Origin: Butyrivibrio fibrisolvens 16/4
Lineage (GTDB): Bacteria; Bacillota; Clostridia; Lachnospirales; Lachnospiraceae
Length of the DNA: 64,000 nucleotides
NCBI GenBank assembly: GCA_000209815.1
Contig: FP929036.1
Coordinates: 2,946,650-3,010,649 of the forward strand
Reading direction: 5' to 3'
The notes under the pieces are model-generated. The model did not search any database. It saw only the letters and a program-made list of their open reading frames with translations, and had not been told where the DNA came from. A program made the translations under genes and the position numbers. Below, one piece after another: positions 33,169 through 50,395 of this stretch; the first letter of the stretch is position 1; the number at the start of each line of letters is the position of its first letter.

Positions 33169-33228
33169 AGAATATCATTTATTTTGTGACAAATCTGTGA
33201 ACTGGCACGAGTTGTCAGATAGTGGCAA
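33169..33228 (-). promoter_or_regulatory. Cluster A promoter with TTGCCA direct repeat
   Basis: On the minus strand TTGCCA (33223-33228) and GTGCCA (33203-33208) are exactly 20 bp apart. A -10-like TATTCT (33169-33174) lies 28 bp downstream. The start codon is 142 bp from the nearer half-site. The same layout occurs at 43936 and 50370. Confidence 0.6.
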
Positions 33229-33338
33229 GAACTGTTATAAATAGATATACAACTTGTGAAATGACTGTGAAAAACATTACTATGTAATTTTTTCACTACA
33301 AAATAGGTTTGAGAATTTTTGAGAATCTAAGATTGGAA

Positions 33339-33620
33339 TTATCGCAAGAAGTCTGGGAATGCGCTTGTCCTCGTCTTCTTGCGATAAATTCTTGCTGATT
33401 TTGATTGAAATTTATCGCAGCACTCCCCGAGAGCCCGCATTTCTCCGTTGGCTTGCGATAAATGTCTGCTGATTTTGATTAATATTTATCGCAAACCAAC
33501 GACAATATGCTGCTTCACAGACTTCTTGTGATAAATTCTTGAGATTTTGGCTTGATTTTTGGTTGTGACTTATCACAGCACCCCACTTGAGGCCGCATTC
33601 CTCCGTTTCCTTGCGATAAA
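33339..33620. repeat. Array 1: four 49-52-bp palindromic repeats
   Basis: Units lie at 33339-33387, 33411-33462, 33485-33535 and 33569-33620. Each is bounded by TTATCGCAA-like and TTGCGATAA-like ends. Unit 1 has a perfect 13-bp stem and a 23-nt loop. Loops differ but share pieces with array 2. Spacers are 22-33 bp and partly alike. The array ends 21 bp from the stop of the nuclease-like gene. Confidence 0.8.
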
Positions 33621-33641
33621 CCAGTAAATCATTATATTTAT

Positions 33642-34382
33642 CTACAACTTCATAAGTACTAGTGCTGCTTCAGCTTCTGAATAAGTAAATGGATTATGCC
33701 TAGTTTCAAAAGTAAAAATCACATTCTTTCCTGGCACCAATCCATACTCATAATATGTCTTCATTTTATTAAAGGCAGCCCTGGCATAATCTGCATCATC
33801 CATCTTTCCAAAATGCTCCCAATAAACTATTTCATTCGTATTAGGATTAATCAAGGTGAAATCAGGATAATATGTCTGCTTTCCTATCACTAGCTCACTT
33901 TCGTATCTAAACATAATTCCATAATTATTCAATACCATATCAATAAACGCCTCTGATTTGGAACGCACTTTATGTCCTGAAGGGCATGGTACATTACACT
34001 GCTCTGTATAATGAGGATTAGTCTTATAATCTTGATTCTCCCAATCTGCTACTACATTAGAAATATTTTTCCTAAGTAATTCTTGATAACTCTCATCCTG
34101 TAAAAATTTTTCAAATTTCTTCTGGGCAGTATTCTGACTTAAAAGCTGACTTTCTAAGTTTCCTTTCGTTTCAAGCAAATAATTTTTCTTTAACAAATAG
34201 TATTTCTTCATTGCAAGTTTTTCCGCTAAAGTTCTATTTGCCTTTGACAAATACTGCCTTGCCTGCCCATTAATATAATACCATCTGTATGAACCATTAT
34301 TGGTGTAGGCTTTTAATTCTCCTGGCGGTAAAATCTCAAGAGCTTTTTCTATTTCTAATAATTCTTTTTCAATATTATTCAA
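33642..34382 (-). CDS. PD-(D/E)XK nuclease-like protein of unknown role
   Basis: The 246-residue protein has a helical N-terminal half and a C-terminal half that fits a PD-(D/E)XK nuclease fold: RSKSEAFIDMVLNNYGIMF (conserved Glu), YYPDFTLINP (Asp), then YWEHFGKMDD, where Glu-His may replace Glu-x-Lys, and a C-terminal VIFTFETRHNPF. The closing QARQYLSKANRTLAEKLA is a helix near residue 40. It is flanked by two arrays of palindromic repeats. No methylase or helicase partner is nearby. Function is not known. Confidence 0.65.
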   Translation of the reverse strand: MNNIEKELLEIEKALEILPPGELKAYTNNGSYRWYYINGQARQYLSKANRTLAEKLAMKKYYLLKKNYLLETKGNLESQLLSQNTAQKKFEKFLQDESYQELLRKNISNVVADWENQDYKTNPHYTEQCNVPCPSGHKVRSKSEAFIDMVLNNYGIMFRYESELVIGKQTYYPDFTLINPNTNEIVYWEHFGKMDDADYARAAFNKMKTYYEYGLVPGKNVIFTFETRHNPFTYSEAEAALVLMKL

Positions 34383-34793
34383 CTTATTTCTATAATACTT
34401 TTCTATAACTAATACTCCTTTATTCTAAATTACTATTCTATTTCTGTAACTGCATACTGACCAAACAATAAAATTGTCAGCAAGAATCATATTTTTTGTT
34501 GGATATGAAAATAAGTAAATCCTATTTCATAGTATTTACGTTTCCTATTTTCAGATGAATAAAAAGTAAACTTTTGGGGATCAATAAAGATTGAATGTTA
34601 GAATTGATATTCCAATAATTATATAAACTGTTAGTTATATTTGTATCGCGTTTGTAAAAAGACCAATGAATAATAACATATATTAAAATTTTGCACAACT
34701 ACATTTAACAAAGGGATGTAAATCTATTATATGAGGCCCCCTCTACATTGTTGTCAAGCATATATAACTTTTGCATTAACAATAATGCTCTTA
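34383..34793. other. 410-bp AT-rich gap without recognised features
   Basis: The stretch is upstream of the nuclease-like gene and must contain its promoter. Both strands lack coding frames with ribosome binding sites. The sequence is strongly AT-rich with no strong hairpin that I could see. Confidence 0.5.
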
Positions 34794-35065
34794 TTTATCG
34801 CAAAGCAATGATAACAAGCAGTTTCTCAGACTTTCTGTGATAATTTTTTACTAAATATAGCATAAAATTATCGCAAGATAATGGAGGAATGCAGGCTTAA
34901 GCGATGTGTTGCGATAAATATATTTCAAAATTGGGCATTTATTTATCGCAAGCCAACGACAGTATGCTGCTTCACAGTCCTCTTGCGATAAATTCTTGAG
35001 ATTATGACTTGATATTTATCGCAAGAAAACCTGGAAAGCGCTTGTCCTCGTCTTCTTGCGATAAA
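34794..35065. repeat. Array 2: four 51-bp palindromic repeats with 73-74-bp period
   Basis: Units lie at 34794-34844, 34868-34918, 34942-34992 and 35015-35065, with spacers of 22-23 bp. Ends are TTTATCGCAA and TTGCGATAAA, with some variants. Unit 7 (34942) is close to unit 3 of array 1, and unit 8 (35015) to unit 1, including the shared loop piece GCGCTTGTCCTCGTCTTC. The spacer TTCTTGAGATT recurs in both arrays. Confidence 0.8.
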
Positions 35066-35074
35066 TATAGAGAA

Positions 35075-35373
35075 TTATTTTAATTGAATTTTAGAAACAC
35101 CCCAGATGCAAAGCATAAGTATTAGTATCGCCAATAATGAACAAATAAAGGTTTCAACTTCGAAACTTCCTGTTCTAATAAAATCAATAACTGTTGGCAC
35201 CAATCCTATAATAATTATAAATGAGTGCTTCATTAAAAACTGAAAAAAGAAAGCTTCTTATTATCAGCATTAATAATATTTTTCAGGTTATTAATAAACT
35301 CAGTTTTAAATCCATTTCTAAAAAGCTTTCGATTACATTTTTTTCTAATTTGCTCATCAGTATTTTTTCCCAT
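35075..35373 (-). CDS. Small two-helix membrane protein, single frame break
   Basis: ATG 35373 is preceded by AGGAGA. The first half is basic (MGKNTDEQIRKKCNRKLFRN); adding one T in a T-run near 35250 opens the second half, which has two hydrophobic helices (HSFIIIIGLVPTVIDF; ICSLLAILILMLCIWGV). The total is about 99 residues. No family is recognised. It lies 23 bp after the flavodoxin gene on the same strand, so it may be cotranscribed with it. Confidence 0.55.
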
Positions 35374-35396
35374 TTCTGTCTCCTATAAACTTCGGT

Positions 35397-35843
35397 CTAC
35401 CATTCTTTTACATCTGCGGCTGAAAATACTAGCTTAGCATCCACAGATTCTGCTCCTTCAACATAAGGCTGAAGTTTCTCGGCGGTTTTGCCTATTTTGC
35501 TTCCACCAGAGGTGGCAAAAGCCATGACCTTCTTACCTGTCCAATTGTAGCCTTGGCAGAATGTGTTAATTACTCTAGGAGCTGCACCGTACCAAATAGG
35601 GAATCCAATATATACAGTGTCATACTGCTCAAAGTCATCGACCTTTCCCTGTACAGGAACGTCCTTCTTGCCGAACTGCTCTTTATTGCATCTGGCAAGT
35701 GGATTAGTCCATTTGATATCTGCTTTTGTATATGGTTCTACTGGAACAATCTCAAAAATATCTGCCTCAATCATTTCTGCAAATTCTTTTGCAACCTTAG
35801 CTGTTGTTCCTTCTGCACTAAAATAAGTCACTAATGTACTCAT
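35397..35843 (-). CDS. Flavodoxin-like protein
   Basis: The 148-residue protein has the FMN phosphate-loop region YFSAEGTTAKVAKEF near the start and the flavin-binding GFPIWYGAAPRVI and ATSGGSKIGKT further on. These match short flavodoxins/NADPH-FMN-type electron carriers in Clostridia. A TATAAT-like -10 lies at 35917-35922 upstream. It is isolated from redox partners. Confidence 0.9.
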   Translation of the reverse strand: MSTLVTYFSAEGTTAKVAKEFAEMIEADIFEIVPVEPYTKADIKWTNPLARCNKEQFGKKDVPVQGKVDDFEQYDTVYIGFPIWYGAAPRVINTFCQGYNWTGKKVMAFATSGGSKIGKTAEKLQPYVEGAESVDAKLVFSAADVKEW

Positions 35844-35988
35844 AATGTATTAACCTCCCTTATAATGCGCTACACTTTTGTTGCGATTAGTTTAGCACTT
35901 GTAGTTCTTTTTTCCAATTATACTTGGCAAAAATTCAGCTCTATAGTGGAAAATGTGAGAGATCCAGATACCTTGCGCACTATAAAAA

Positions 35989-36016
35989 GGAGCCCAAGTG
36001 TGAAACACTGAGCTCC
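35989..36016 (-). terminator. Terminator of the cluster B pilus operon
   Basis: GGAGC (35989-35993) pairs with GCTCC (36012-36016), with a continuing imperfect stem. On the minus strand it is followed by TTTTTAT. It lies 23 bp after the minor pilin stop. Confidence 0.65.
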
Positions 36017-36039
36017 ATAAAATCCTATTAATATTCATT

Positions 36040-36858
36040 TTATTGCTTGCTAGTATTCCTGTTATTGAAATACCAGATAATCATCCCCATACCAATGATA
36101 AAGGCTATTCCACAAAGAACTATAGGAAGTAGGCTGTCGCCAGTCTTTGGTCTTCCTCCAAAAAGAGGTACCTGTGAACCCATTTCAATTACATCTTCAT
36201 CAAACTCTATGATTTCCTCTGGATGCTTTGGTGTAGGGTCTTCTGGGATTGTTACCTCTATAGGTGTCTCAGAAGGCTTTAGGATAAAGCTGACATCATA
36301 TTTCCAGGTGTCATGTCCAGATGTTTTACCGCTGGCAATATACTCGCTACTAGGAGCGTAAATGATATATGGGATAAAGCTGTAATTATATTTTGCATCA
36401 GATGCTTCTCTTGGAATATAAAGATATATTCCAGCCCCGGCCTTTATGGATATAGTACCTGAGAAGCTGCCATTGTTTCTAGAAGCAGTAATACAATAAT
36501 CTGCTGCCTGTCCCTTTACTGCCGCAATGGCAGGACCGACAATCTTCTTTTCCACATCTGCAACCACAGGCTTATTAGATAGAACTGATAAATCTATATT
36601 TGCATCAGCATATCTAGATAAAAGCTGTGGGTTTCCTGCCTCGTCTAAATCTGCAATCTTATATAAATCTATATTAACTGTTCCATTATATGTTTTGCTA
36701 AATACAGAGGAATCATCCTCTCCTATCTGTGCTGTGATATTTATATTTGCGTTCTTATCTATATGAGTAGCAGCTGAAACATTACAAACTGCTGCACCAA
36801 AAACTACAACCGTAGTAGCAACAAGCACAATTGCCTTCTTGATTTTTTTCAATAACAT
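36040..36858 (-). CDS. Minor pilin/basal protein with PKTGDS sorting signal (cluster B)
   Basis: The 272-residue protein has a signal peptide (to about 29) and a beta-rich domain resembling the N-terminal half of the cluster A protein at 26658 (GTVNIDLYKIADL; GIYLYIPREASDAKYNYSF in parts). A Pro/Glu linker precedes VPLFGGRPKTGDS, a membrane helix and a short basic tail. RPKTG differs from the LPXTG of the pilins, so a class B-type sortase such as the fused enzyme may anchor it. It is last in the pilus operon. Confidence 0.78.
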   Translation of the reverse strand: MLLKKIKKAIVLVATTVVVFGAAVCNVSAATHIDKNANINITAQIGEDDSSVFSKTYNGTVNIDLYKIADLDEAGNPQLLSRYADANIDLSVLSNKPVVADVEKKIVGPAIAAVKGQAADYCITASRNNGSFSGTISIKAGAGIYLYIPREASDAKYNYSFIPYIIYAPSSEYIASGKTSGHDTWKYDVSFILKPSETPIEVTIPEDPTPKHPEEIIEFDEDVIEMGSQVPLFGGRPKTGDSLLPIVLCGIAFIIGMGMIIWYFNNRNTSKQ

Positions 36859-36881
36859 TTCTGAAAAATAACTCCCTTAGC

Positions 36882-37757
36882 TTATTTCTCTTTAAATATG
36901 ACCCTGAGAATCAAAATGATTACCAGAACAAGAATAGCTCCAGCTATTCCAAAGATTAAGTAATAATCCTTTACTGTCTCTACAACAGCCTCTGCTCCTG
37001 TAGGAACAGCATCCTCTCCCAGATATTCAATTCTTGTTCCCCGTACAAGAAGCCTGTGGGTGTTTACACCGTATGGTGTACAGGTAAATAGAGTAACGTA
37101 ATCCTTATCTGGTTCCACCTTCATCAATTCTGAAAGTGTATCAATGTCTTCAGCCTCAATCATGGTATTTATTTCATCAACCTCGTAGGCTAATGTCTCA
37201 TCCAATACATGGATGTAAAATTTATCACCGATTTCCAGCTGATCTATATTGGTAAAGAGCTCTGCACTAGGCAAACCTCTGTGACCTACTAATACTGAAT
37301 GGGTGCCCAATCCTCCTATAGGAAGTGCGGTACCATTTAGATGTCCAAGAGCATTTTGAATGTACTCATCAAAAGTACCGTGCATAATGGACAGCTTTAT
37401 ATTTATCTTTGGGATGGATAGATAACCCATTACTCCATCCCCATTTAGATTTAATACAGAATAATACTCTGAATCCAAAAATTCCTGTGTAGGAGTGATT
37501 GCATTTCCATCAGCTCCGGTAGCAAAGGCATCTGTACCGATAGCATTTACCACTATGCCTTCGTTAAATGCACGGGCGGCAGCCCATTGAGCTGAGTAAT
37601 CCTCCGTAGTCATCTCTGAAAGAGAATCCTCGTAATCGTTGATTACCTGATTTTGGACATAATTATTCCATTCATTTGAAATGGTTGGATAAGCCAATGC
37701 TATGGCCCCTCCAAAAAACAATGCAAAAATAATTATTTTTAGTATTATCTGTTTCAA
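36882..37757 (-). CDS. Class C sortase (pilin polymerase) 2
   Basis: The 291-residue protein has N- and C-terminal membrane helices and a class C catalytic core: VLVGHRGLPSAELF (His), FTCTPYGVNTHRLLVRG (Cys and Arg). It probably links pilins through LPXTG. The upstream sortase gene is 7 bp away; two class C sortases in tandem are common in pilus operons. Confidence 0.93.
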   Translation of the reverse strand: MKQIILKIIIFALFFGGAIALAYPTISNEWNNYVQNQVINDYEDSLSEMTTEDYSAQWAAARAFNEGIVVNAIGTDAFATGADGNAITPTQEFLDSEYYSVLNLNGDGVMGYLSIPKINIKLSIMHGTFDEYIQNALGHLNGTALPIGGLGTHSVLVGHRGLPSAELFTNIDQLEIGDKFYIHVLDETLAYEVDEINTMIEAEDIDTLSELMKVEPDKDYVTLFTCTPYGVNTHRLLVRGTRIEYLGEDAVPTGAEAVVETVKDYYLIFGIAGAILVLVIILILRVIFKEK

Positions 37758-37764
37758 CTGTCAC

Positions 37765-38631
37765 TTACCTCTTATTGTGTTTCTTATCGTATAAATACAA
37801 AATCGTAATAAAAGCAGCTACTGTTAAAAGACCAACTATAACCCAAAGAAGGTAATTAGTTCGAAGGCTGACAACACCAAAGGCTGGTGTCTTTGCATCC
37901 TCTAAAAGAGTAGGTGTGTATTCTACTCTGTGTCCCCGGACCATAAGTCGCTGGGTGTTTACGCCGTAAGGAGTGCAGGTAATTAATGTACATAAATCCT
38001 CACCATCCTCCACAGCAAGAAGTGATGTATCCTCTGGCTCCACAACATCAATAGAATCTATCTCATAGGCATAATATTCATCAAGAATGATTATGAAGAA
38101 ATCCTCACCTATCTTTACCTTATCCAAATCTGTAAAAAGAGTGGCACTAGGCAGGCCTCTGTGGGCGGACAAAACCGAATGGGTGCTAGGCCCACCAACT
38201 GGAAGGGATGAACCCTCCAGATGTCCTACACCTACCTGCAATACATCTTCATTTGTTGTATGGAAAATTGGGAGCTTTATATTGATAGATGGAATCTGGA
38301 TGTATCCCATTATTCCATCGCCTCCCACATTGAGAATACTCATGTATCTTTCATCTACGCCATTAGCCTCTGCCTCCGCAAAGGAATCTGGCAGGATGCT
38401 TGGTAGCAAATCTTCATTGTAAAGATATGCCTTTTCAAGCTCCGCTTCTGTATTGATACTTCCTTCTTCAATAGCGGTAGAAACAGCCTCTGTATAATTG
38501 TTTACAAGAGTGGACTGGACGTGATTGTTCCAGATATTCGCCAAAAGGGGATACAACAGCAAGGACAAGCCAGCAATCATCAAAGCACCTATTCCAATAA
38601 GCTTGTAATATGTTTTAAAAAATGCCTTCAT
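37765..38631 (-). CDS. Class C sortase (pilin polymerase) 1
   Basis: The 288-residue protein has an N-terminal helix, catalytic SVLSAHRGLPSATLF and LITCTPYGVNTQRLMVRG, and a C-terminal helix with a basic end. A lid motif is not obvious. It follows the backbone pilin gene after a strong hairpin. It is similar in length and motifs to the next gene. Confidence 0.93.
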   Translation of the reverse strand: MKAFFKTYYKLIGIGALMIAGLSLLLYPLLANIWNNHVQSTLVNNYTEAVSTAIEEGSINTEAELEKAYLYNEDLLPSILPDSFAEAEANGVDERYMSILNVGGDGIMGYIQIPSINIKLPIFHTTNEDVLQVGVGHLEGSSLPVGGPSTHSVLSAHRGLPSATLFTDLDKVKIGEDFFIIILDEYYAYEIDSIDVVEPEDTSLLAVEDGEDLCTLITCTPYGVNTQRLMVRGHRVEYTPTLLEDAKTPAFGVVSLRTNYLLWVIVGLLTVAAFITILYLYDKKHNKR

Positions 38632-38650
38632 ATTCCACCTGACCTCTCCT

Positions 38651-38691
38651 TGATGCTGTATGCTCTGCCAAAAAAGGCAGAGCCTGCATCA
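38651..38691 (-). other. Strong hairpin between pilin and sortase genes
   Basis: GCTCTGCC (38662-38669) and GGCAGAGC (38676-38683) form a perfect 8-bp stem, extended by TGATGC/GCATCA at 38651 and 38686. No T-run follows. It could stabilise pilin mRNA or reduce read-through into the sortase genes, as at 27788-27833 in cluster A. Confidence 0.55.
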
Positions 38692-38726
38692 ATTATTTAA
38701 TCATCATAACATGAATATGTGTCTAT

Positions 38727-40204
38727 TTAGTTTACAGAGTCCTTTTTCTTTGTAAGAAAGTAAAGGGCTGCTGCTGCAGACATAAGGATAATACCAAGTA
38801 CTGTGAAGATTGTTGTACCGATACCACCAGTGAATGGAAGCTTTGCAAGCTTTGAGTTAAAGAACTCAGTTGTTTTATGAAGCTCACGCTTCTGATCTTC
38901 AGTCATATTCTCGTACTTGACTGTCTTGAGGTCCTTACTCTGATCCTTAATAGTTACACAAAGCTTATCTCTATTAATTGCATAACCTTCTGGAGCCTCT
39001 GTCTCCTCGAAGATGTAATCGCCCTCTTCAAGACCCTTAACTGTTAACTTACCAAGTGTATCCTTCTCACTAGATGTCTCAACTGTTGAAGATACAACTA
39101 AGTTACCATCTTTAAATGCATACTTCTCTGCTGAGTACTCAACATTATTCTGATATAACTCATATGCATTATCTACTGTGTTATAAACGAACTGAAGTGT
39201 ATTATTCTTGTGTGTAATTACGAACTTTGCACCACCAAGAAGCTCAGTTTTATTTGAATTATACTTTGTAAGCTCAATATCTGCAGAATATCCATAAACC
39301 TCAGGTGGAGTATTTTTAGGCTCTCCATTTTCCTTCAACTCATATGTGCTGTCATAAGCCTGGTTAACATATCCATTTACACCAAGAACTGTTGCATCAT
39401 ATTCGATAGTAAGTGTCTTGCCTGCATTAGCATTTTCAACACCTGCTGCTACAAGCTCTGAAAGATCCATTGTATAAAGAACTGAACCATATTTTGCTAC
39501 ACCAGCATCAAAAGAAAAGCCATCAATTTGATCATTGTTAAGGAATACCTTTACTTCCTTAGGTGCTGAAAGATTTGTTGCCTTATCATATACCTTATAT
39601 GTTGTGTTTTTAAATCCTTCATGTAAGGAACTGTAGATGTAAGTACAAAATGAACATCCTGTCCTGCATGAGCAAGGCTATCTTTCTCTTCCTTCTCTAC
39701 AGTGTTTTCTGAACCCTTTGCCTTTATTTCAACAATCTCTGTCTCAGTAACATACCTACCAGCTTCTGTTGTCTTGTAAGCTACTGCTACCATTGTGTTG
39801 TACTGTACCTTTGTACCAACAGCCTTAATCATATAAACACCGCCAGCAAGACCATCAAATTTAAGGTCTTCTCCATTATAAGAAATAGCTTTCTTTACTG
39901 GCTTTGCATCATTATCATTTTTCTTGATTGCAGCAGCTAAAGCATCATTAAGATCTTTAGCATTAAATTCAGGCTTAAGCTCAGCATTGTATGCAGCCTT
40001 AGCCCAATCCTTAATCTCAATTGTATTGTTTTTAGAATCGATAGTTGCGAGTGTGTACACTGAAACTTCTGTCTTCTCATCTCTAGTAGAGATATTTGTC
40101 ACTTTAATTGTTGCTGTTTCATCTGCAGCAAAAGCTGTAACGCTCATTGCCATCATCATTACTGCAGCTAAAGCAGTAGCGATAATCTTCTTGAAATTCT
40201 TCAT
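38727..40204 (-). pseudogene. Backbone pilin with LPFTG (cluster B), single frameshift
   Basis: Adding one A near 39622 gives a 492-residue pilin. It has a signal peptide (to about 26), an N-terminal domain, a middle domain (KYGSVLYTMDLSELV), a SpaA-like domain (GGAKFVITHKN) with E-box FEETEAPEGY, and the anchor KLPFTGGIG plus helix and KKK. It follows the fibro-slime adhesin by 11 bp and precedes two class C sortases. It is the likely shaft subunit of the pilus. Confidence 0.88.
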
Positions 40205-40215
40205 TTCATTTCTCC

Positions 40216-43200
40216 TTATAACTTTAAAATTTTCTTTTTGTTTTTGTATAACAACAGCGATGCCAACATCATAAGTAGAACTCCGCCGATTGTGTAAAGG
40301 ATTGGTCCCCTTCCGCCTGTAGCTGGAAGTGTGTAGGCGATTTCATTTTCAAAGGCAAATGTAGTTGTTTTAATAACAGCTCCATTTGACATTGACTGCT
40401 CTGAAACTGACATTTTATCAGATAAATCTCCCTGCTTTGACATATAAGCACTTACACCATTTTCTCTATCGATGGTGATGTGCCATACATCCTGGCTCAT
40501 TGTATATCCTACTGGAGCAATTGTTTCAGAAAGGCTGTAAGTTCCCACTGGAATCTCCACTGGATTATTGCCCTTCTTTCTGTCATTTTTGGACGAGTAC
40601 CATAAAACTTCGCCATCCTGCTGGCTCTTTCCATAGTACTTGTTTTTAGAACCCTGGGATCCTCCGACGAGAGTAAACTCTGCGCCCATAAGTGTTCTGC
40701 CAGAAGTGCTTTTCTTAATTAACTTCCAGTCAAACACCTTTACTAATACATTTTCAAACTCAGCGACTTTTTTGTATGCTACTGAATTAACATTATTCTC
40801 CCTGGTAGCATTAAAATCTATCAAAGCACTACGCTCACCAAAAGCGTCTTGCTTGTTATCAACTGTGATTTTTGTATCATAGTTATTTAATGAATATCCA
40901 TTCTTGGAACGAACATCAATCTCTGAAATCCGATATTTGTTCTCCATTAATCCATCAAACACAGCAGTCTCATTAGCTTTTAATGCAAACTGGCCATATT
41001 CATTTGTAGTTAAAACTTTGTCGCCAACTACGTAGCTGACGTTAGCGCAAGGTCTATAATAACTCTGTCCATACCAACCGGTATTCACCTGCTCTAGTAC
41101 AAAAACGTAATCTGCATCAGCATCAAGTATTCTTGCATCTGGATAAGATACCTTTTTGCTGACAGTAAGCTTCTTTGCGTACCTAGTAGGATTATTCTTT
41201 ATAGCAGTAACCTTAGTGCAGGCATCGTATACCTGCCTTCCATAATCACCAAAAGACAGAACCTGTGCCTGACTATTAACCGCATATAGTTCCTGTGACT
41301 GGCTTCCATCCTTGTATGCTGTGAGCACCATCTTCCATATGGCACCCTCTGCCTGATTGTAGCCTTCCGGTGCCTGGGTTTCCTTCATGTAATAGGTCTT
41401 TACTGCCCTATCACTGTTTCTAGGAATAACACCTGCTGAAAGTCCGGTAAACTGGATAGTTCCATTTCCATCAGAATTTGCAACCGCTGAAATACCATTA
41501 TCCATATGAGCAATGCTATTCTCTGAACAAGACTCATCTGTGTAAAGAGTAAACTTTGCATTTGCAAGTCCTCTTCTATTTTCGTCTACCTTAAGACCTG
41601 TGAAATCTACAGTTCTTGTCTCTGTTTTAGAGAAATTGTAACTGATCTTACAGTTTGATTCGTGAGCGCCTCGCTCGAAATATACAACAGTAAGAATATG
41701 CTCCTTCCTGCTAAACTCTTCTCTACTGCCTACTCCAAGATATTTCCAAAGGCTCCCCTTCTCATCAAAGCTTATATTTGATTTAGCAGTAATATATCTG
41801 GATTCATCCACAACATAACAGCTGTTATCAACTGAGGATGTGAGAATGTTTTCCTTATCTCCCTGAATGAGAACTGTACCATTTTGAAAATCAATCTGTC
41901 CCTTTACGGCATCGTGAACACCACCAAGGTCAAGCACCAGCTGATTGTCTACATATACGAAAACATCATCATCACCAGAGAATTTGAATACTGCTGGCTT
42001 ACCATCATCAGTAAGTCCATCCTCGGCGATGCAAAAGCTAATAGGAAGCATCATTCCGAAATGATTGTCACTATTTGCAAATGGTCTGAATTCCTTTTTA
42101 TCAATTGAGTCAGGCTTTGGTGTAACCTTTCCAGATCTATATGAATACTCTCCCTCGTATCGATAGGTCTTACTATCTAATGTCCAAAAGCCTGAATCAT
42201 CCAGATTAAACTGAACATCTACATTGTCGTGATACTCTGTAATGTAGTTTTTATAATGATTGTTGTAATAAAGGTATGCCCCATAATTAGGGAAGAATTC
42301 TTTATCAGTGCGTCTGTACTGATCTGATAGATTAAACTGTCCATCAACAAGCCAATCTGCTGCAAGTCCCTGATATACCTGTCTTTCGCGGCAGTGATTG
42401 TTAAGAGAACCTGTCTGACCAGAGCCAAACATAAACTGATCACCAAAGGCTCTGTTTTCTTTTCCCTCTGCATTTCCTGTCTGAATACCATTTACATAAT
42501 TAACAAGCTTGGCATTACGAATAAATGAATTATTTTCCAAAAGCTTTGCCGTACGTGGTCGAAGGTCAACCAAAAGAGCATTTACTACTCTATTGTCATC
42601 ATACATAGCTCTAAGATTAAAATCTAAGGTGCAGGTAGTTTGATAATTTTCTGGCAAGTACTGTTGATCAGGCCATTTATTTCTTATACTATCTCCTGTT
42701 TCGCTGTTTGCATCATAATGGTACAAAGAAACTCTTGCTATGTAATAGTTTTCCGGAGCAGTAACTGTGAATGTAAAATCCTGAACAGTTTTAGACCAGC
42801 CATAAACGAATACCCTGTCATTATTTGCAGGAGCTATTTCGTGTGGTGCATAATCAAAATTGTTTTGATGGTAAACTCTAAGGGCAACTCTACCGTTATT
42901 CCAGCTATTTGCCGGCTTCTTATTCTCATTTTTTGATTCTACGTAATCTATGAAATTGTAAGCCTTATTTGCCCTTAAGGTGCCATATGCACAATCCTTG
43001 TATAAGAATTTCTTCTCCCCAGGCAGTTGCTTTTTTTGATATGAAGTCAGCACATAATAGGAAAAGCTGTCTGCCTCGAAAGAAACTGTGCCCCCTTCGA
43101 TTTCCGAACCTATAGCCTCAACAGTATCATCGTCCTTCATATGTACTACTGCATCAGTGTCCACAGTGTCTGATTCGATTGTAATTCTGACGTTGTGATC

Positions 43201-43809
43201 CTCTTTAGGCTCGATTTCCTCTCCATCAGCCTCAAATCGAAGATCGAAGGCATAGTAGCTTTCCACGCCCTCAGCAGGAACTGCATCGTCTACCAGTTCC
43301 TTTTCTGAGCTGGAAAGCTCTACTTTGTCTGCTAAAAACTCAACATCCACATCAAATGTTCCTGCTGGAACAAAAGCTGTTATATTAAAATCTCCCTTTT
43401 TAACATTGAATGTCTTGTCTTCCTGGCCCTCTTCTTGGTCCTCTGGATTATCTAAGCCTTCTAGTTCTTCCATGTCAGAAACTTCTTCTGTCTCTTCTTC
43501 AGAATCTTCTGTGGTGTCTTCTGCTTCGGGATTGTCTATTGATGATTCTTCTTGGGAATTTGTACTATTTGAATTTGAACTAACTTCTTCAGAATTTGTT
43601 TGAGTGTTGCTTGGATTAGTTGATATATCTTCAGAATTGGTAGTGCTATTATTATCTATTGTATTGCTTAATTCGGTATTGCTAGTATTTTCTTCGCTAA
43701 GGTACACATCTTCTGTGCTGGCAGCATAGACAGATACCTGAGTGGAGAACAGCATCGCTACCGAAAGACCACTACAAAGTAATCTTCGTAAGATAGGATA
43801 CTTTTTCAT
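40216..43809 (-). CDS. Large fibro-slime/PA14-like LPATG adhesin (cluster B)
   Basis: The 1197-residue protein has a signal peptide (to about 30), a Ser/Thr/Asn/Glu-rich region (about 32-135), a beta domain, and a fibro-slime/PA14-like carbohydrate-binding region (FKFSGDDDVFVYVDNQLVLD; GGVHDAVKGQIDF; LTVVYFERGAHESNCKISY). Two or more Cna-B/SpaA repeats follow (FTGLKVDENRRGLANAKF; ETQAPEGY), then the anchor LPATGGRG, a helix and KNKKK. It is the probable tip protein. The C-terminal architecture parallels the adhesin at 47296, which lacks the anchor. Confidence 0.88.
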   Translation of the reverse strand: MKKYPILRRLLCSGLSVAMLFSTQVSVYAASTEDVYLSEENTSNTELSNTIDNNSTTNSEDISTNPSNTQTNSEEVSSNSNSTNSQEESSIDNPEAEDTTEDSEEETEEVSDMEELEGLDNPEDQEEGQEDKTFNVKKGDFNITAFVPAGTFDVDVEFLADKVELSSSEKELVDDAVPAEGVESYYAFDLRFEADGEEIEPKEDHNVRITIESDTVDTDAVVHMKDDDTVEAIGSEIEGGTVSFEADSFSYYVLTSYQKKQLPGEKKFLYKDCAYGTLRANKAYNFIDYVESKNENKKPANSWNNGRVALRVYHQNNFDYAPHEIAPANNDRVFVYGWSKTVQDFTFTVTAPENYYIARVSLYHYDANSETGDSIRNKWPDQQYLPENYQTTCTLDFNLRAMYDDNRVVNALLVDLRPRTAKLLENNSFIRNAKLVNYVNGIQTGNAEGKENRAFGDQFMFGSGQTGSLNNHCRERQVYQGLAADWLVDGQFNLSDQYRRTDKEFFPNYGAYLYYNNHYKNYITEYHDNVDVQFNLDDSGFWTLDSKTYRYEGEYSYRSGKVTPKPDSIDKKEFRPFANSDNHFGMMLPISFCIAEDGLTDDGKPAVFKFSGDDDVFVYVDNQLVLDLGGVHDAVKGQIDFQNGTVLIQGDKENILTSSVDNSCYVVDESRYITAKSNISFDEKGSLWKYLGVGSREEFSRKEHILTVVYFERGAHESNCKISYNFSKTETRTVDFTGLKVDENRRGLANAKFTLYTDESCSENSIAHMDNGISAVANSDGNGTIQFTGLSAGVIPRNSDRAVKTYYMKETQAPEGYNQAEGAIWKMVLTAYKDGSQSQELYAVNSQAQVLSFGDYGRQVYDACTKVTAIKNNPTRYAKKLTVSKKVSYPDARILDADADYVFVLEQVNTGWYGQSYYRPCANVSYVVGDKVLTTNEYGQFALKANETAVFDGLMENKYRISEIDVRSKNGYSLNNYDTKITVDNKQDAFGERSALIDFNATRENNVNSVAYKKVAEFENVLVKVFDWKLIKKSTSGRTLMGAEFTLVGGSQGSKNKYYGKSQQDGEVLWYSSKNDRKKGNNPVEIPVGTYSLSETIAPVGYTMSQDVWHITIDRENGVSAYMSKQGDLSDKMSVSEQSMSNGAVIKTTTFAFENEIAYTLPATGGRGPILYTIGGVLLMMLASLLLYKNKKKILKL

Positions 43810-43898: not shown

Positions 43899-43961
43899 CT
43901 ATAATAATAGTTTTTTCCATATAAAAAAAGCGAATTGGCAATATTTATTTCATTTTGGCAA
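43899..43961 (-). promoter_or_regulatory. Cluster B pilus promoter with TTGCCA direct repeat
   Basis: On the minus strand TTGCCA lies at 43956-43961 and 43936-43941, exactly 20 bp apart. A -10-like TATTAT at 43901-43906 is 29 bp downstream. The start codon is 127 bp from the nearer half-site. The upstream half-site directly follows the T-run of the preceding terminator. Confidence 0.6.
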
Positions 43962-44022: not shown

Positions 44023-45099
44023 CTATCTATTACGTTTTCTACTTACATAGTAAGTTGTAATTATTACAGCAATGATAAGAATTATTGTAATAACAGCTAT
44101 AGTAACAAGAACTCGTGATAGACCTGAGCGTTGATTCTGACCTCCTAAAGGAGTATCTGTTTCTGGAATTTCTATTCCAAGAGGAGTATCTGGATCAGTG
44201 ATTGTAGTTTCATCAGAACCCTCTGCAGATTCACCAGCAGCATCTCCTTCACCTTCTGCTCCAGCTTCTGCAGCCTCTGCTCCTTCTGCTGCCCCGGCTG
44301 CTCCTGCCTCAGTTCCGGCAGCTGCAATTTCACGATTGTTAACAACTGTATTTCCAGTATTAGTATTTGTTCTTACCTGAGGTTCACCCTCCACATATTC
44401 ATAATCATAGGTATATGTAGGTGTACCATTAATATACTGAATAGAAGTGATTTCCTTGTAGGTCACATTCTCTTTTTCTGTAGGAGCCTTGTAAGTAAAT
44501 ACAACCTCCTGCTTGTCAGTATTTAATATAATATCTTTTGATTCTACATCAGGTGTATAGCCTGTAATATGCTCCGCTGGAACCTTTATGCTTTCACCCT
44601 TGCCTGCATACAAAGTGATTGGTGAAGCAACTGCATTTCCCTTCTCATCAACAAACTTGACGATATAAGAAATAACCTCTCCTACACCGTAGGCAACTAC
44701 ATAGGTCTCATCCTTATCAAATACAATATCGCTGGAGATGATTGCATCTGCTCCGGCAACTCTAAGTCCCTTCACATAATGCTTTTTCACACCGTTAGAA
44801 TCAGCCTTAATATCGATTGCTTCGCAAATGGCATTTCTTGAAAGAGTTTTAGGACTGCTACTGTTGTAGTTTTCCGTAATAACCAGCTTATTTCCCTGGA
44901 TGTTTGAGGCACTGTATCCCATTGCTTCAATCTTAGAAGTGTTAAATGAAGCTTCTTTGCTTTCTCCTAAATTTCCAAGAGAAATAGTAACTGTATACTT
45001 AGTATCAGTAGCTTCAGCCCTAACTGATAATGTAAGCATCAAAGAAAATGCAAACATCACAGCCAGAAGGCCACCTAAATATTTCTTAATTCCCTTCAT
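44023..45099 (-). CDS. Secreted MucBP-like membrane-anchored protein (cluster B)
   Basis: The 358-residue protein has a signal peptide (to about 31), a MucBP-like part (ISYIVKFVDEKGNAVASPI to QEVVFTYKAP, about 145-205), an Ala/Glu/Gly-rich linker, TDPDTPLGIEIPETDTPLGG, and a C-terminal membrane helix with a basic tail. It is the paralog of 23516-24556. It is last in this operon, 2 bp after the preceding gene. Confidence 0.75.
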   Translation of the reverse strand: MKGIKKYLGGLLAVMFAFSLMLTLSVRAEATDTKYTVTISLGNLGESKEASFNTSKIEAMGYSASNIQGNKLVITENYNSSSPKTLSRNAICEAIDIKADSNGVKKHYVKGLRVAGADAIISSDIVFDKDETYVVAYGVGEVISYIVKFVDEKGNAVASPITLYAGKGESIKVPAEHITGYTPDVESKDIILNTDKQEVVFTYKAPTEKENVTYKEITSIQYINGTPTYTYDYEYVEGEPQVRTNTNTGNTVVNNREIAAAGTEAGAAGAAEGAEAAEAGAEGEGDAAGESAEGSDETTITDPDTPLGIEIPETDTPLGGQNQRSGLSRVLVTIAVITIILIIAVIITTYYVSRKRNR

Positions 45100-45101
45100 A
45101 A

Positions 45102-45950
45102 TTAGGCTACCTCCTTTTTTCTATTAATCCCCATTGCTACAGCATAGATAATCAGCATCATACCAAGAACAAATAACGCACTGCAGATTGCCATTACCAC
45201 AATTGAATCTCCAGTACTTGGATTTCCTCCTGCCAGAGGCACATCTGAATCATCGATTACCACAAGCTCTGTTCCATTATCAAGAGTTTTTACAATCTGT
45301 TTAACGATTGTCTTCTTTTCAGAAACAGCCACCTGTTTTGTTATTGTGTTTGTCTTAGTAATATTTTTGATTATTGTTTTATGCTTTTCAGCATTTTCCG
45401 TTGACTCTGCCTTAAAGAAAAATGCCAAAGCTGCATCCTTATCCCCGTAGATGTTTGGCTGAGAGTCACCATCTAATTTGATTGATACAACTACCTTGCC
45501 TGAGCCATTTGCTGGAATGCTTCCAAGAGAGAAGTATAAACCATCGTCACCACTAACCTGTTTTAAACCAACAGCTGCGGTTGCATCACCACCGATAGTC
45601 TCGCTATCAAACAGCTCTGAACCATTATTAGTGATTTTATAAGAGTATGCGCCGCCAACATTTCCCTCTTCCAATGAATTCAAAACATCGGCATTCATAT
45701 AAAAATCAGCACTCTCTGTTGTGTTGTTCTTATACTGAATAGTGTAGGAAATTGTGTCCCCTGGCATAGCCCCCTGAACTGGCTTGTAATCATCCTTGTA
45801 TGTAGATGTAAAATCCACATCACTCTTTCCGTTATAGGTCACTGTCCATCCTGAACCAAGAGTTTCTGCGTTAGCACTTAGCACAGAACCTGTAAAACCT
45901 GCTGCAACAAGAGTTAATGCAAGAACCAAATTTTTTATTATTTTTTTCAT
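45102..45950 (-). CDS. Secreted protein with NPSTGDS sorting signal (cluster B)
   Basis: The 282-residue protein parallels 24563-25378: signal peptide, domain with AMPGDTISYTIQYKNNT, and the anchor DDSDVPLAGGNPSTGDS followed by a membrane helix and NRKK. NPSTG is close to the NPxTG-type motifs of class B sortases. The predicted enzyme is the fused protein at 22211. Confidence 0.78.
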   Translation of the reverse strand: MKKIIKNLVLALTLVAAGFTGSVLSANAETLGSGWTVTYNGKSDVDFTSTYKDDYKPVQGAMPGDTISYTIQYKNNTTESADFYMNADVLNSLEEGNVGGAYSYKITNNGSELFDSETIGGDATAAVGLKQVSGDDGLYFSLGSIPANGSGKVVVSIKLDGDSQPNIYGDKDAALAFFFKAESTENAEKHKTIIKNITKTNTITKQVAVSEKKTIVKQIVKTLDNGTELVVIDDSDVPLAGGNPSTGDSIVVMAICSALFVLGMMLIIYAVAMGINRKKEVA

Positions 45951-45964
45951 CTTACACTCTCCTC

Positions 45965-46783
45965 CTACAGATTAGTGTCATCTATCTTTACAATAGTTCC
46001 ATTACTATCAATCTGAGCTTTTACACCCCAGGCACCAAGGATAGCTTCCTCAGCTGAATGAGCTTGCACTGCATCAACTCTGGCCTCTACCTTAAAGGTC
46101 TTTCCATCATAACCATAAGTACTGTTACTTTCGATTATGTAACCCTCTTCGGTCTCAGTTTTGGTAGTAGTCTTTGTTATATCATCTAAAATCTTTTCAT
46201 CAAATGTAATAGACTCTATAACTTTGCTTGTATTTTTATTATCGGTATTATCGATTGGTTTCTTAGAGTATAAAATAATCTCTTCACCAGAAGCTAAATC
46301 AACTTCACCCCAATCGCTGGTTTTATTTAGCTTTATGATTGATGGATCAAGAGTAGTATCTTTCTTTCCGTTCTCATCCACCCAATACTTTCTGATAACT
46401 ACTCTAACGTACTCTGCACCACTACTACCATCTGATTCTTTGTCATCTGATGTAGGATTAACCACTCTGATATTCTCAGGATATGGTGTCTCCACAACCA
46501 GCTTCTCTTTGCCACTCTTTACAGCAGCAAGAGATGTAAATACCAACTCCCCTGTAACCTCTTTACCATCCTTTACAGCGGCAACAGTTACATAATCTTC
46601 TTTATTAGGATCAGTGCTTCTATCCTCCTGAAGCTTAACCCCAATACTTGCTGTTTCAAATCCAACATTTTCTACAGTAGCTTTGTCAGCACTAACAGCT
46701 TTAGTGGCTCCAAAAGCACCACCAGATGCAAGAATTAATCCTGCAGCTAAAAGGAATAAAGGATGTTTAAGATTAATCTTCAT
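45965..46783 (-). CDS. TasA/camelysin-like SipW-dependent protein, medium size (cluster B)
   Basis: It starts at ATG 46783, which overlaps the previous gene's end by 11 bp and has GGAGG 8 nt upstream; the in-frame ATG 46801 is too early. The 272-residue protein has a SipW-like N-terminus (GGAFGATKAVSADKATV), then YPENIRVVNP and a C-terminal VDAVQAHSAEEAILGAWGVKA, shared with 25395-26120 (VDAVQTHNAEEAIYAAWGVKA-like). Translational coupling to the small partner suggests fixed stoichiometry. Confidence 0.75.
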   Translation of the reverse strand: MKINLKHPLFLLAAGLILASGGAFGATKAVSADKATVENVGFETASIGVKLQEDRSTDPNKEDYVTVAAVKDGKEVTGELVFTSLAAVKSGKEKLVVETPYPENIRVVNPTSDDKESDGSSGAEYVRVVIRKYWVDENGKKDTTLDPSIIKLNKTSDWGEVDLASGEEIILYSKKPIDNTDNKNTSKVIESITFDEKILDDITKTTTKTETEEGYIIESNSTYGYDGKTFKVEARVDAVQAHSAEEAILGAWGVKAQIDSNGTIVKIDDTNL

Positions 46784-47303
46784 TTGTAGCACCTCCTTCA
46801 TTCTGTGTTGGTGTAGTTATAGATGTTTCTTTTGCTATCTTTTCGTCCCAGCCTGCAGATCCATCATTTTTAACTCTGGCTGCCTCAGCAACAACTACAA
46901 CATTAAATTCTTCATCTGCAGTGTTCTTAGGATCTATCTTTACATATAATTCATTAGATGTTTTACCTGGCTCGATTATTGAATCGTAGTAGTAATAACC
47001 ATCTTTTTCAGACCACCCTTTTGAACTATCCTTATCAAAGATAAGCCCCTGTGTTCTTCCAACTATAACCTTTACTCTTGCATACACTGGTAAATCGCCA
47101 GTGTTTTCAACAGAGATAACCTTGATATCCTTTTCGATACGCTCCTTTGGGATTATCTCGATTTTCTTATCTGATAAATGTACTATTGATGTACCTGCTG
47201 TATTATGTGTGTCTGTCAAGAAAGCCATGGCTGGCTTTACTGCAACTGCACTTATCATTAGAAGAGCAGCAGCGACAATCACTAAATATTTCTTTTTAAT
47301 CAT
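46773..47303 (-). CDS. TasA/camelysin-like SipW-dependent protein, small (cluster B)
   Basis: The 176-residue protein begins with a hydrophobic helix and AVKPAMAFLTDTHNTAG, a SipW-type signal. The domain has VISVENTGDLPVYARVKVIV and DGYYYYDSIIEPGKTS. Its ATG overlaps the adhesin stop by 8 bp. It is the paralog of 26136-26639. Confidence 0.78.
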   Translation of the reverse strand: MIKKKYLVIVAAALLMISAVAVKPAMAFLTDTHNTAGTSIVHLSDKKIEIIPKERIEKDIKVISVENTGDLPVYARVKVIVGRTQGLIFDKDSSKGWSEKDGYYYYDSIIEPGKTSNELYVKIDPKNTADEEFNVVVVAEAARVKNDGSAGWDEKIAKETSITTPTQNEGGATNED

Positions 47304-50244
47304 TATCGCTCACCTCCTCCTCTTCTTCTGGCTGAACCGGCTCAACAATTACGGCTTCGCCCTTTCTAAATAATAAATTCTTGATTCTATCAAAGATATT
47401 TGTGATGCTGATGCTTCCATAAATATCATTGTAGTTGTAATCATTTACGAACTTGACCTCTGAAGTCTTGCTATCCTCAATAGTTACATTGATGGTCTTG
47501 TCTGCTGCAACCTTACCAGTACCAGAAACAACCTCTGCACTCTTTAGGTCATAGCTTCCACCACTGTAAACCTCTGAAACAGTAACCTCTGTGTCACTAG
47601 GAATTGTAATGGCTTCTACCTTCTTTGTGCCAGGTCCTGTAAATGAAAGTGGATATACTTTGCTATATTCCTTATCCCCAATCTTGTAATAAACCTCAAA
47701 TGCAAATGTGGCAGTGCCACCTGTCTTATAGTATCCCTCGAGCTTCTTTGTAATCACAAGCTTTCCTGGCTGCTTTTCAATATTCTTAATAGCCTTTACA
47801 TTTGTGCTGTTTTCTCCATCTGTAATGGAAATCTTCTTTGCATCATTTGTTTCAGCTGTAAGACTCTTAGAAGTAACTCCACCAGTCTTTGCTGTAATAT
47901 CTAATTTCCAAACTGCGTTTCCAGGAAGTCTGTAGCCTGAAGGTGCTTCAGTTTCTTTCATATAGAAGGTCTTATTAATCTGAGCTGTTGTACTTGTAAG
48001 AACCCCTATTGAAAGGTCCGTAAATTTGATTGTTCCCTTAGCATCAGAAACTGCTTTCTTAGGATTACCACTTCCATCTAAAATAGGAGTTTTGCATTCA
48101 GCATCTTCAAATAATCTAAACTCTGCTCCTGCAAGTGGCTTGCTATCCTTATCAACCTTTAAACCTTCAAACTCTACATCTACAGGCTCGTCTTTATTAA
48201 AGTTGTAGCTGATTCTGCAGTTAGAAAGATTTCCACCTCTTTCAAAGTAGATAACTGTAAGAGTGTGCTCCTCTTTGCTGAAGTTTGAAAGGCTGGTTCC
48301 TAAAACCTTATAAAGGTTTGTATTGCCCATTCCCTTGTTTTGATAAACAGTGTTATCAATAGAAGATGTGAGCTTGCTATTGTAATCTCCCTGAATTAAA
48401 ACATCACCAGTCTGGAAATTAATCTGACCTCTGATGATGTCGTGAATACCGCCAAGGTCTAATACAAGCTTTCCATCAACGTATACAAAAACATCATCGT
48501 CTCCGGAGAACTTGAATATTGTTGGATTACCATTTGTCTTTCCATCACTGTTAACAGAGAACTTGATTGGAAGGTACATTGCAAAATGATCATCATTTCC
48601 GAATGGTCTAAACTGTTCCTTGCCGCTAACAGGTGCTAATTCATTTTCTGAATTTAATTCGTATCTAGAGCTAGCACTGTCTATAGTCCAATATCCCTGC
48701 TTATCTTTTCTGAAAATAACAGAGGCATCTGATCGATAATCAGTAATGTATTTATCATACTTTGCTCTGTTTGCTTCGTATGTATCAGCATTTGGGAATG
48801 CCTCATTTGAATTACCAGTAGCAAGCTTAAAGCCGCCAGCTGTTATATCAAGTGTATCAGAGGCAAGTCCCTGATATACCTGCTCGTAATAGCAATTATT
48901 GCTCCCTGTACCCTTGCCATCGTTAAATAGGAATTCACTTCCTAGATTGTTTGCATTATTTTTATAATTTACAAATGTTGCGCCGCTTACTGTAGTTGTA
49001 GTGTCTCCATCCCACTCTACAGGAATAGGACGCAATCCAATAACAACCTCGTTTACCTTGTAGTTTCTTCCTATTCTATCCAGCTTAAGTGTTGCATCAA
49101 AAGAAGTCTGATATTTTCCAGATGGTTTCTTGGCACCAATAACTTCCTTTGGATTTGGTCCTGCAATTCCCACATAATCAATGTAGTAATTCTCTGGTGC
49201 TTTGAAATGGAATGTGAATTCACTATCATTATCACTTCCATATATGAAGCATCTATTGCCTCTTGCAGGAGCGATAGTGGCAAAACCATTATCTAAGTTA
49301 TAGCTATGTAATCTAACAGCATAGCTGTCCTTATCTGCTACTTCAAAAACAGTTCTTGTGTTCTCAAGATGCTTCTCTTCTGTAGCACATGATCCGTATG
49401 CACTATCCTTGTAAAGAACAGAATCTGTTCCAAACTCTGGCTCAGAAAAAGCTACAAGTAAGAATGGTGAAAACTCAGTAGCGCTGAATGTATTTCCTTC
49501 GCCAACCTGAGTATAGCTTTCACTATTAGAGAAATGGAAAACCTTGTCAGCAGTAAAATCCAAACCGTTAATACTGATTTGTACGCTCTTACCCTCTTTA
49601 GGCTGTACCTTTTCTTCGCCTGATACAAAGCTAATATCAAAAGCTGCAGACCCACTAACTACCTTTTCTGTATAAGAAGCCTTAACTGCTGCAAGCATCT
49701 CTGAAAGATCACCTTCGCCAACAGGTGCAAGCTTTAATGCAACATCAGATGCCTCGAAAGTATCAGGCTCTATTGTGGCACATACATTGTAGTTTCCCAG
49801 CTTTTCTGAAAGCTCTATAGCTTCCTCAGGCTCTTCCTTTTCTGGGTCTGTCTCTGTCTTATCTGGATTTTCTTCGTCTGGATTCTCCTCATCCGGATTC
49901 TTTGGATTCTCCTCATCCGGATTCTTTGGATTTTCTACGTCCGGATTCTCTGGATTCTCTATATCTGGATTTTCTGGATTCTCTACATCTGGATTTTCTG
50001 GATTTTCCTTACAAGGCTGCGTAGGCTCCTCAGAATTTGGCTCCAGTTCATCCTCAATATTATTGGACCCCTCTGAAGCATTGTTTTCTCCCTGACCTTC
50101 TCCTAAAACAGTCTCAATCTGTGATTCAGGTGTAGTCGATGATGACGTATCTTCATTATCAGCATAAACGCCTATTGAAGATGTCATAATTAGCACTAGG
50201 GCTAGACTTAGGGATAATAATTTGTTTTTAAAAATCCTCATCAT
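47296..50244 (-). CDS. Large fibro-slime adhesin without LPXTG (cluster B)
   Basis: ATG 50244 (or 50241) behind AGAGGGAG gives 982 residues and a proper signal peptide (to about 28); the in-frame ATG 50316 does not. Domains in order: Glu/Asn/Pro repeats (about 62-125), a beta domain, a fibro-slime/PA14-like region (FKFSGDDDVFVYVDGKLVLD; GGIHDIIRGQINF; VIYFERGG), a SpaA domain (FEGLKVDKDSKPLAGAEF; MKETEAPSGY) and a DUF5979-like domain (GKLVITKKLEGY; VSEVYSGGSY). It ends in an acidic tail without sorting signal or membrane helix. It probably rides on the SipW-dependent fibre encoded next. Confidence 0.82.
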   Translation of the reverse strand: MMRIFKNKLLSLSLALVLIMTSSIGVYADNEDTSSSTTPESQIETVLGEGQGENNASEGSNNIEDELEPNSEEPTQPCKENPENPDVENPENPDIENPENPDVENPKNPDEENPKNPDEENPDEENPDKTETDPEKEEPEEAIELSEKLGNYNVCATIEPDTFEASDVALKLAPVGEGDLSEMLAAVKASYTEKVVSGSAAFDISFVSGEEKVQPKEGKSVQISINGLDFTADKVFHFSNSESYTQVGEGNTFSATEFSPFLLVAFSEPEFGTDSVLYKDSAYGSCATEEKHLENTRTVFEVADKDSYAVRLHSYNLDNGFATIAPARGNRCFIYGSDNDSEFTFHFKAPENYYIDYVGIAGPNPKEVIGAKKPSGKYQTSFDATLKLDRIGRNYKVNEVVIGLRPIPVEWDGDTTTTVSGATFVNYKNNANNLGSEFLFNDGKGTGSNNCYYEQVYQGLASDTLDITAGGFKLATGNSNEAFPNADTYEANRAKYDKYITDYRSDASVIFRKDKQGYWTIDSASSRYELNSENELAPVSGKEQFRPFGNDDHFAMYLPIKFSVNSDGKTNGNPTIFKFSGDDDVFVYVDGKLVLDLGGIHDIIRGQINFQTGDVLIQGDYNSKLTSSIDNTVYQNKGMGNTNLYKVLGTSLSNFSKEEHTLTVIYFERGGNLSNCRISYNFNKDEPVDVEFEGLKVDKDSKPLAGAEFRLFEDAECKTPILDGSGNPKKAVSDAKGTIKFTDLSIGVLTSTTAQINKTFYMKETEAPSGYRLPGNAVWKLDITAKTGGVTSKSLTAETNDAKKISITDGENSTNVKAIKNIEKQPGKLVITKKLEGYYKTGGTATFAFEVYYKIGDKEYSKVYPLSFTGPGTKKVEAITIPSDTEVTVSEVYSGGSYDLKSAEVVSGTGKVAADKTINVTIEDSKTSEVKFVNDYNYNDIYGSISITNIFDRIKNLLFRKGEAVIVEPVQPEEEEEVSDND
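49864..50007 (-). repeat. In-frame 24-bp repeats coding NP[EK]NPD[VIE]E
   Basis: At least five 24-bp units and shorter derivatives code for an acidic Asn-Pro repeat in the adhesin stalk. The near identity of the units suggests recent slippage or recombination, so copy number may vary between strains. Confidence 0.8.
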
Positions 50245-50334
50245 ATGCTCAACTCCCTCTAACCTTAAATATTTCACATAAATAAATGTGATATCAAGTA
50301 ATAAACTAAGAGGCACACAATGCCCCCAGATGTT

Positions 50335-50395
50335 ATGCTAAATCACTTACTTCTCAAAAAAAAGATATGTGGCAACAACTACTATTTTTTGGCAA
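50335..50395 (-). promoter_or_regulatory. Cluster B first-operon promoter with TTGCCA direct repeat
   Basis: On the minus strand TTGCCA lies at 50390-50395 and 50370-50375, exactly 20 bp apart. A -10-like TAGCAT (50335-50340) is 29 bp downstream. The start codon is 126 bp from the nearer half-site. It directly follows the terminator of the glycosyltransferase gene. Confidence 0.6.

Follow-up and report, generated by a model that had tools for sequence, protein, structure and literature searches.

Three fiber or pilus operons in Butyrivibrio fibrisolvens 16/4 are each preceded by the same direct repeat, TTGCCA-N14-TTGCCA, which raises the question of which protein reads it. The operons lie in the 64,000-nucleotide stretch analyzed here (the window; assembly GCA_000209815.1, contig FP929036.1, positions 2,946,650 to 3,010,649 of the forward strand). 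The original prediction, made from the letters of the window alone, proposed a single LytTR-type activator and named the LytTR protein encoded at window positions 59167-59871. A single LytTR-type activator is well supported by the two-turn repeats, their preferred distance to the -10 element and a constant link to the LytTR family; the named regulator is not supported. Taken as a whole, our observations are best explained if the operator is bound by a different LytTR regulator, encoded outside the window at genome positions 2258421-2259134, which probably activates a regulon of pilus and surface-protein genes.

A conserved direct repeat upstream of surface-protein genes

The repeats of the window and their -10 elements are as follows.

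33203-33228, minus strand: operator 1, TTGCCA-N14-GTGCCA (one mismatch), upstream of adhesin operon A
33169-33174, minus strand: -10-like TATTCT, 28 bp from operator 1
43936-43961, minus strand: operator 2, exact TTGCCA-N14-TTGCCA, upstream of sortase-pilus operon B; conserved in genomes G009 and G005
43901-43906, minus strand: -10-like TATTAT, 29 bp from operator 2
50370-50395, minus strand: operator 3, exact TTGCCA-N14-TTGCCA, upstream of operon C; conserved in G005
50335-50340, minus strand: -10-like TAGCAT, 29 bp from operator 3
22166-22191, plus strand: operator 4, exact repeat, upstream of the surface-protein open reading frame (ORF) at 20321-22099 (minus strand) and in reverse orientation relative to that gene
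22136-22141: -10 element TATAAT, 24 bp from operator 4

All three of the 20-bp-spaced repeats from which the original prediction started (33203, 43936 and 50370, one of them with GTGCCA) are present on the minus strand, as are the -10-like hexamers 28, 29 and 29 bp away, and the distance of 126-142 bp from operator to start codon is correct for all three operons. At operator 2, the top-scoring -10 element found by our script is TATAGT at 32 bp, which overlaps TATTAT. Allowing at most one mismatch, the window contains four matches to the repeat, compared to a mean of 0.59 in dinucleotide shuffles, and none of 100 shuffles reaches four. The fourth match, operator 4, goes beyond the original prediction. 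When each window promoter was compared with one or two related species, both half-sites were kept and several letters between and around them had changed. Operator 1 scores 25.3 bits with a position weight matrix (PWM) that omits own-genome sites and includes the counterparts of operator 1 in relatives. It is weak in the whole-genome scan (E value of 0.4), where a match within an ORF outscores it. Since relatives G009 and G008 carry an exact repeat at this position, we retained operator 1 as a high-confidence site.

Occurrence of the motif at chance frequency across the genome had been named as grounds for abandoning the original prediction. We report exact TTGCCA pairs by spacing in the own genome (3.16 Mb, a Pseudobutyrivibrio). 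Of 41 such pairs at spacings of 2 to 32 bp, 9 fall at spacing 14 and at most 2 at any other spacing (Poisson P ~2e-6), and in three relatives 24 of 126 exact pairs fall at spacing 14 (next highest spacing, 9). Because spacing 14 stands out in this range, the motif is not a product of chance. We give practically no credence to the idea that the repeats are chance or functionless: single TTGCCA words are common and one exact match lies inside an ORF (the pair at 2287198, in a long ORF, is probably a chance occurrence), but the spacing spectra, the conservation and the positioning of the -10 element contradict it.

Exact pairs occur in 28 of the 29 Pseudobutyrivibrio genomes that we refer to as genus genomes (198 in total, with a median of 6; the reversed pattern occurs twice), and G020 is the only genus genome without the motif. 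Of 32 genomes from other genera, 8 contain exact pairs, 9 in all (reversed pattern, 3), and 237 genomes of a 397-genome family sample have no exact pair. Genome G010 holds many near-identical copies of TTGCCAGCAGAAATCTGGCTTTGCCA, of which single copies or variants are found elsewhere in the genus; this looks like a dispersed repeat element, and the motif count of G010 is therefore inflated.

Operator anatomy and promoter geometry

Across 66 distinct sites, TTYTTGCCAraa is conserved twice, 20 bp apart. The operator thus consists of two half-sites of ~9-14 bp at a 20-bp step, each reading TTYTTGCCAraa and, in other genera, approximately TGACGTTCnTGCCA. One motif model was built on 40 of the 66 sites. 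At forward sites, where TTGCCA reads towards the gene, the best -10 element lies 28-29 bp away in 18 of 40 promoters, while at reverse sites it lies 41-42 bp away in 10 of 17; the 24 bp observed at operator 4 is outside the distance that reverse sites prefer. With the -10 element at 28-29 bp and an assumed 17-bp spacer, a forward operator would end 5-6 bp ahead of the -35 position. The 20-bp period and the spacing peak give the repeat the two-turn form of a LytTR operator. At three places (L064:17187-17232, L191:6026-6071 and G007:C23:11115-11160), three half-sites stand in a row at 20-bp steps.

The LytTR gene of the window

The regulator named in the original prediction and its neighboring kinase gene are located as follows.

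59167-59871, minus strand: LytTR response regulator
57859-58938: GHKL kinase gene, near the window LytTR gene

This LytTR protein belongs to the right family, is encoded in the same chromosome region as the operators, and is 100% identical to a protein of Pseudobutyrivibrio sp. 49, which marks the organism as a Pseudobutyrivibrio. Its distribution across genomes does not match that of the motif. No ortholog of at least 63% identity was found in G001, G002, G007, G013, G021, G023 or G026, all of which bear the motif (completeness is 99% for G002, G013 and G021, and 81-87% for G001, G007, G023 and G026), and an ortholog is present in G020, the motif-free genome. We also scanned 39 loci (641 kb) of the window LytTR gene and its homologs. 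These yielded ten PWM matches, most of them ~9-10 kb from the gene, and several of the loci do have motif-bearing surface genes at that distance. The nearest match is 4 kb away and inside an ORF; there is none closer by in the stretches covered, some of which are cut close to the gene. The gene's own promoter scores -12.6 bits. On the phylogenetic mismatch and the lack of a nearby match in the covered stretches of the 39 loci, we reject this protein as the regulator of the motif; it is very unlikely to bind the three operators and to activate the pilus operons.

A different function is suggested by the neighborhood. Two GH3 glycosidase genes lie near the window LytTR gene, and work on Butyrivibrio proteoclasticus (PMC2914790) places LytTR regulators each near a GH3 enzyme. 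The setting of the window gene is alike, which suggests that the protein has a role in carbohydrate use and, on present evidence, is not this motif's regulator.

A LytTR regulator outside the window

The own genome has eight LytTR matches. The protein encoded at 2258421-2259134 has a LytTR domain scoring 29.2 bits (Pfam cut-off, 22.6) and an N-terminal Response_reg domain scoring 80.2 bits. Orthologs of at least 63% identity are found in 27 of the 29 genus genomes, the absent calls being G020 and G026, and the former is the sole motif-free genome. In all 27 orthologs, an operator lies 6-99 bp 3' of the regulator stop codon on the same strand; 23 of these operators are exact and 4 have one mismatch. 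On its other side, the regulator gene is flanked in all 27 by a divergent histidine kinase gene. Of 12 longer loci, 11 contain the whole or almost the whole of this kinase gene and one is cut; in the own genome the gene encodes a HisKA-HATPase-REC-Hpt hybrid. Around six other LytTR genes of the own genome, no PWM match is present in the stretches scanned, which span 13-14 kb for five of them and ~3 kb for the sixth. A one-mismatch site upstream of a LytTR-GHKL pair (genome 6108-6827) scored 10.3 bits with the first PWM and below 14 bits with a leave-out PWM, and was not counted.

Outside the genus, 14 gene copies in 12 genomes of the family sample encode homologs of the 2258421 regulator with 33-38% identity. 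The leave-out PWM, built on 41 sites from other Pseudobutyrivibrio genomes only and applied with a match threshold of >14 bits, finds a site in 10 of these 14 loci; a block-shuffled control gave 2 matches in 1.92 Mb at the same threshold. For 9 of the 14 copies, the site lies upstream of the regulator or kinase operon, in reverse orientation, with a consensus near TGGCAGGAACGTCAATTTTCTGGCA. In a phylogenetic tree, the regulator orthologs group in a single branch (support 97/94) with the G254 homolog and with the other homologs from G334, G366 and G421 that bear a site, and long-branched paralogs fall outside it. These other-genus loci are the strongest evidence that the motif belongs to this LytTR clade.

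They also bear on the idea that the repeats are read by an unrelated DNA-binding protein, one of whose target genes happens to neighbor the gene of the 2258421 LytTR protein. Such an arrangement fits a site that, in Pseudobutyrivibrio, stands between the LytTR gene, which it follows, and a surface gene, which it precedes, and co-occurrence inside one genus is compatible with other genus-wide regulators. It does not account for similar sites upstream of homologous LytTR operons in the other genera, nor for two-turn direct repeats, which are typical of LytTR operators. We consider an unrelated reader improbable.

Several observations weigh against assigning the operator to the 2258421 regulator. 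The best -10 element lies elsewhere in 22 of the 40 forward and 7 of the 17 reverse promoters, including those of window operators 2 and 4. Genome G026 (81% complete) has the motif, and no ortholog of the regulator was found in it; because one G026 site, which resembles the second site of the regulator locus in sequence, is 239 bp away from the end of a contig, the missing ortholog may plausibly sit in an assembly gap. The Pseudobutyrivibrio site follows the regulator gene on its 3' side and could therefore serve the next gene alone, and in the own genome no site with at most one mismatch precedes the regulator itself, unlike in the other genera. Among the other-genus loci, the G390 site scores only 14.6 bits, the G254 site lies ~1.4 kb away between converging genes with no evident promoter, and the fetched stretch holds no site for 4 of the 14 copies (one of two in G366, G292, one of two in G334, and G219); in the site-free G366 stretch, the ORF caller did not pick up the regulator gene. 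Finally, the site counts include orthologous sites and are to that extent not independent.

Scope of the predicted regulon

The original prediction tied the repeat to all three pilus operons of the window. Operators do precede all three, but this scope is too narrow: the own genome has ~10 sites, mostly at surface-protein genes. Since the motif precedes these other genes as well, it marks a genome-wide regulon, and we rejected a pilus-only scope once the genome search showed other targets. In the own genome we count as high-confidence sites the one-mismatch site at 1724090, the 33203 site of the window, and eight exact pairs that do not fall in long ORFs; two of the eight overlap short ORFs only (72 and 88 amino acids). 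Low-scoring model matches at 2262154 and 1260041 were dropped for want of the paired layout, and the one-mismatch match at 2342259 lies inside an ORF, even though it outscores the 33203 site.

Targets were counted on part of the 198 genus matches. From 47 loci with 71 sites (at most one mismatch), we removed 9 sites in ORFs of more than 150 amino acids, leaving 62 sites that give 57 site-gene pairs; orthologs are included, so these pairs are not independent. Loci L131, L146, L147, L153 and L159, fetched for a site, added none to the counts, and the own-genome loci L037-L043 (one-mismatch matches) were inspected and excluded. By a crude rule, a signal-peptide-like start is present in 41 of the 57 site-linked genes, compared to 140 of 520 other ORFs. 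There are non-surface targets as well: the 2609727 site, for one, precedes an operon with an MGS-like protein and an ABC protein, and has a counterpart in two relatives.

Proposed mechanism and comparison with known LytTR systems

In the mechanism that we propose, a signal would pass from a hybrid kinase to the regulator, and the regulator at its operator would recruit RNA polymerase for the expression of pili and surface proteins. The 2258421 regulator probably receives its signal from the divergent hybrid histidine kinase (HisKA-HATPase-REC-Hpt). A phosphorylated regulator dimer at a forward operator, ~5-6 bp upstream of a weak -35 element, would recruit RNA polymerase, turning on the window's three pilus/adhesin operons together with approximately seven other loci, mostly for secreted surface proteins. 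We infer each of direct binding, activation rather than repression, and the pairing with this kinase.

A regulator that binds the same sites and mainly represses has a precedent in the LytTR protein CoxC, whose operator overlaps the -35 element (PMC11347149). In the usual forward geometry found here, the proximal half-site ends 28-29 bp from the -10 element, which would place it just ahead of the -35 position rather than on top of it. The same paper states that most LytTR regulators bind upstream of -35 and activate. Repression as the main effect is therefore unlikely, and activation by the 2258421 regulator is the reading that we carry forward.

PMC11347149 describes the canonical LytTR operator as two 9-bp direct repeats separated by 10-13 bp, in most cases upstream of -35 and activating. 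The present operator likewise has direct repeats spaced by about two helix turns, its TTYTTGCCA 9-mers being separated by 11 bp, and in forward promoters of the usual geometry its predicted place is upstream of the -35 position. It differs in its half-site sequence and in its use in both orientations, each with its own -10 distance. The RcoM1 operator half-site, TTCNNGCA (PMC11347149), shares TTCNNGC with the present half-site form TTCTTGCCA; RcoM1 differs in having three repeats, a role in CO metabolism and another protein architecture.

The Streptococcus mutans LytTR regulatory systems (LRS) HdrR and BrsR also use direct repeats, separated by 11-12 bp and placed 4-11 bp ahead of -35 (PMC6193735). 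LRS autoregulation resembles the other-genus operons with a site upstream, whereas an LRS pairs its regulator with an inhibitory membrane protein. The present regulator has a receiver domain joined to its LytTR domain, stands beside a kinase gene in place of a membrane inhibitor, and has mostly surface-protein targets. Compared to LytTR-GHKL two-component systems, the two other-genus homologs whose kinase neighbors were checked (G421 and G254) are alike in having an adjacent gene for a GHKL protein. In Pseudobutyrivibrio, the neighbor is instead a divergent hybrid HisKA-type kinase in 27 of 27 cases.

The operator is thus real and conserved, and its mechanism is of a known kind, that of a LytTR regulon, with an unusual kinase neighbor and an operator used in both orientations. 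A broader history can be offered tentatively, and we hold it to be somewhat less than an even proposition. In this history, a LytTR regulator would have exchanged an ancestral GHKL kinase for the hybrid HisKA-REC-Hpt kinase, and the site at its own promoter for one before the next gene. It would now act as a genus-wide surface switch with pili, giant adhesins and further surface proteins under its control, and its operator would be functional in both orientations, at a preferred promoter distance particular to each.

Among the papers that our searches returned, judged by listings and passages, none names a regulator for Pseudobutyrivibrio pili or surface proteins. Pili and surface proteins are the likely tools with which rumen bacteria attach to plant material, and one distant regulator most likely switches many of them on together, judging from sequence. 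The case also illustrates that proximity to a target operon does not by itself identify the LytTR regulator that controls it. Now that an operator, a regulator and a kinase are predicted and approximately ten target loci are listed, the question can be tested with one purified protein and a few probes.

Genes behind the window operators

29278-33061, minus strand: adhesin A region (VWA, DUF7604, SpaA and LPXTG), with three ORFs
27841-29265: second SpaA/LPXTG gene, after the adhesin A region
36040-43809, minus strand: operon B, encoding a 1197-residue SpaA/LPXTG pilin-like protein, a 217-residue protein, a 247-residue SpaA/LPXTG protein, two sortases and a 272-residue protein
44023-50244, minus strand: operon C, with a 1006-residue ORF carrying a SpaA domain, three short genes and a gene for a MucBP protein
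20321-22099, minus strand: secreted surface protein of 592 residues, behind operator 4

The adhesin A gene is split over three reading frames (ORFs of 231, 363 and 605 residues), and its homolog in G009 is a single ORF of 1256 residues; the split reflects either a broken gene or sequence errors. Operon B, with LPXTG pilins that carry SpaA domains together with sortases, has the composition of a sortase-assembled pilus. A search for related loci with the 1197-residue pilin as query gave no match. The five proteins of operon C have no Pfam sortase or LPXTG match, so this operon lacks both a sortase of its own and an LPXTG lead protein by that measure, and its 1006-residue ORF probably starts at 50241/50244. 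The N-terminus of the 592-residue protein resembles those of 1700-residue surface proteins that have reverse-oriented operators elsewhere.

Beside operator 4, window positions 22211-23449 encode a 412-residue protein with a signal-peptidase-like N-terminus (S26, just under the Pfam cut-off) and a C-terminal sortase domain. Two similar proteins without a Pfam match, of 261 residues (L032:5009-5794) and 246 residues (window 33642-34382), adjoin operators at two separate loci.

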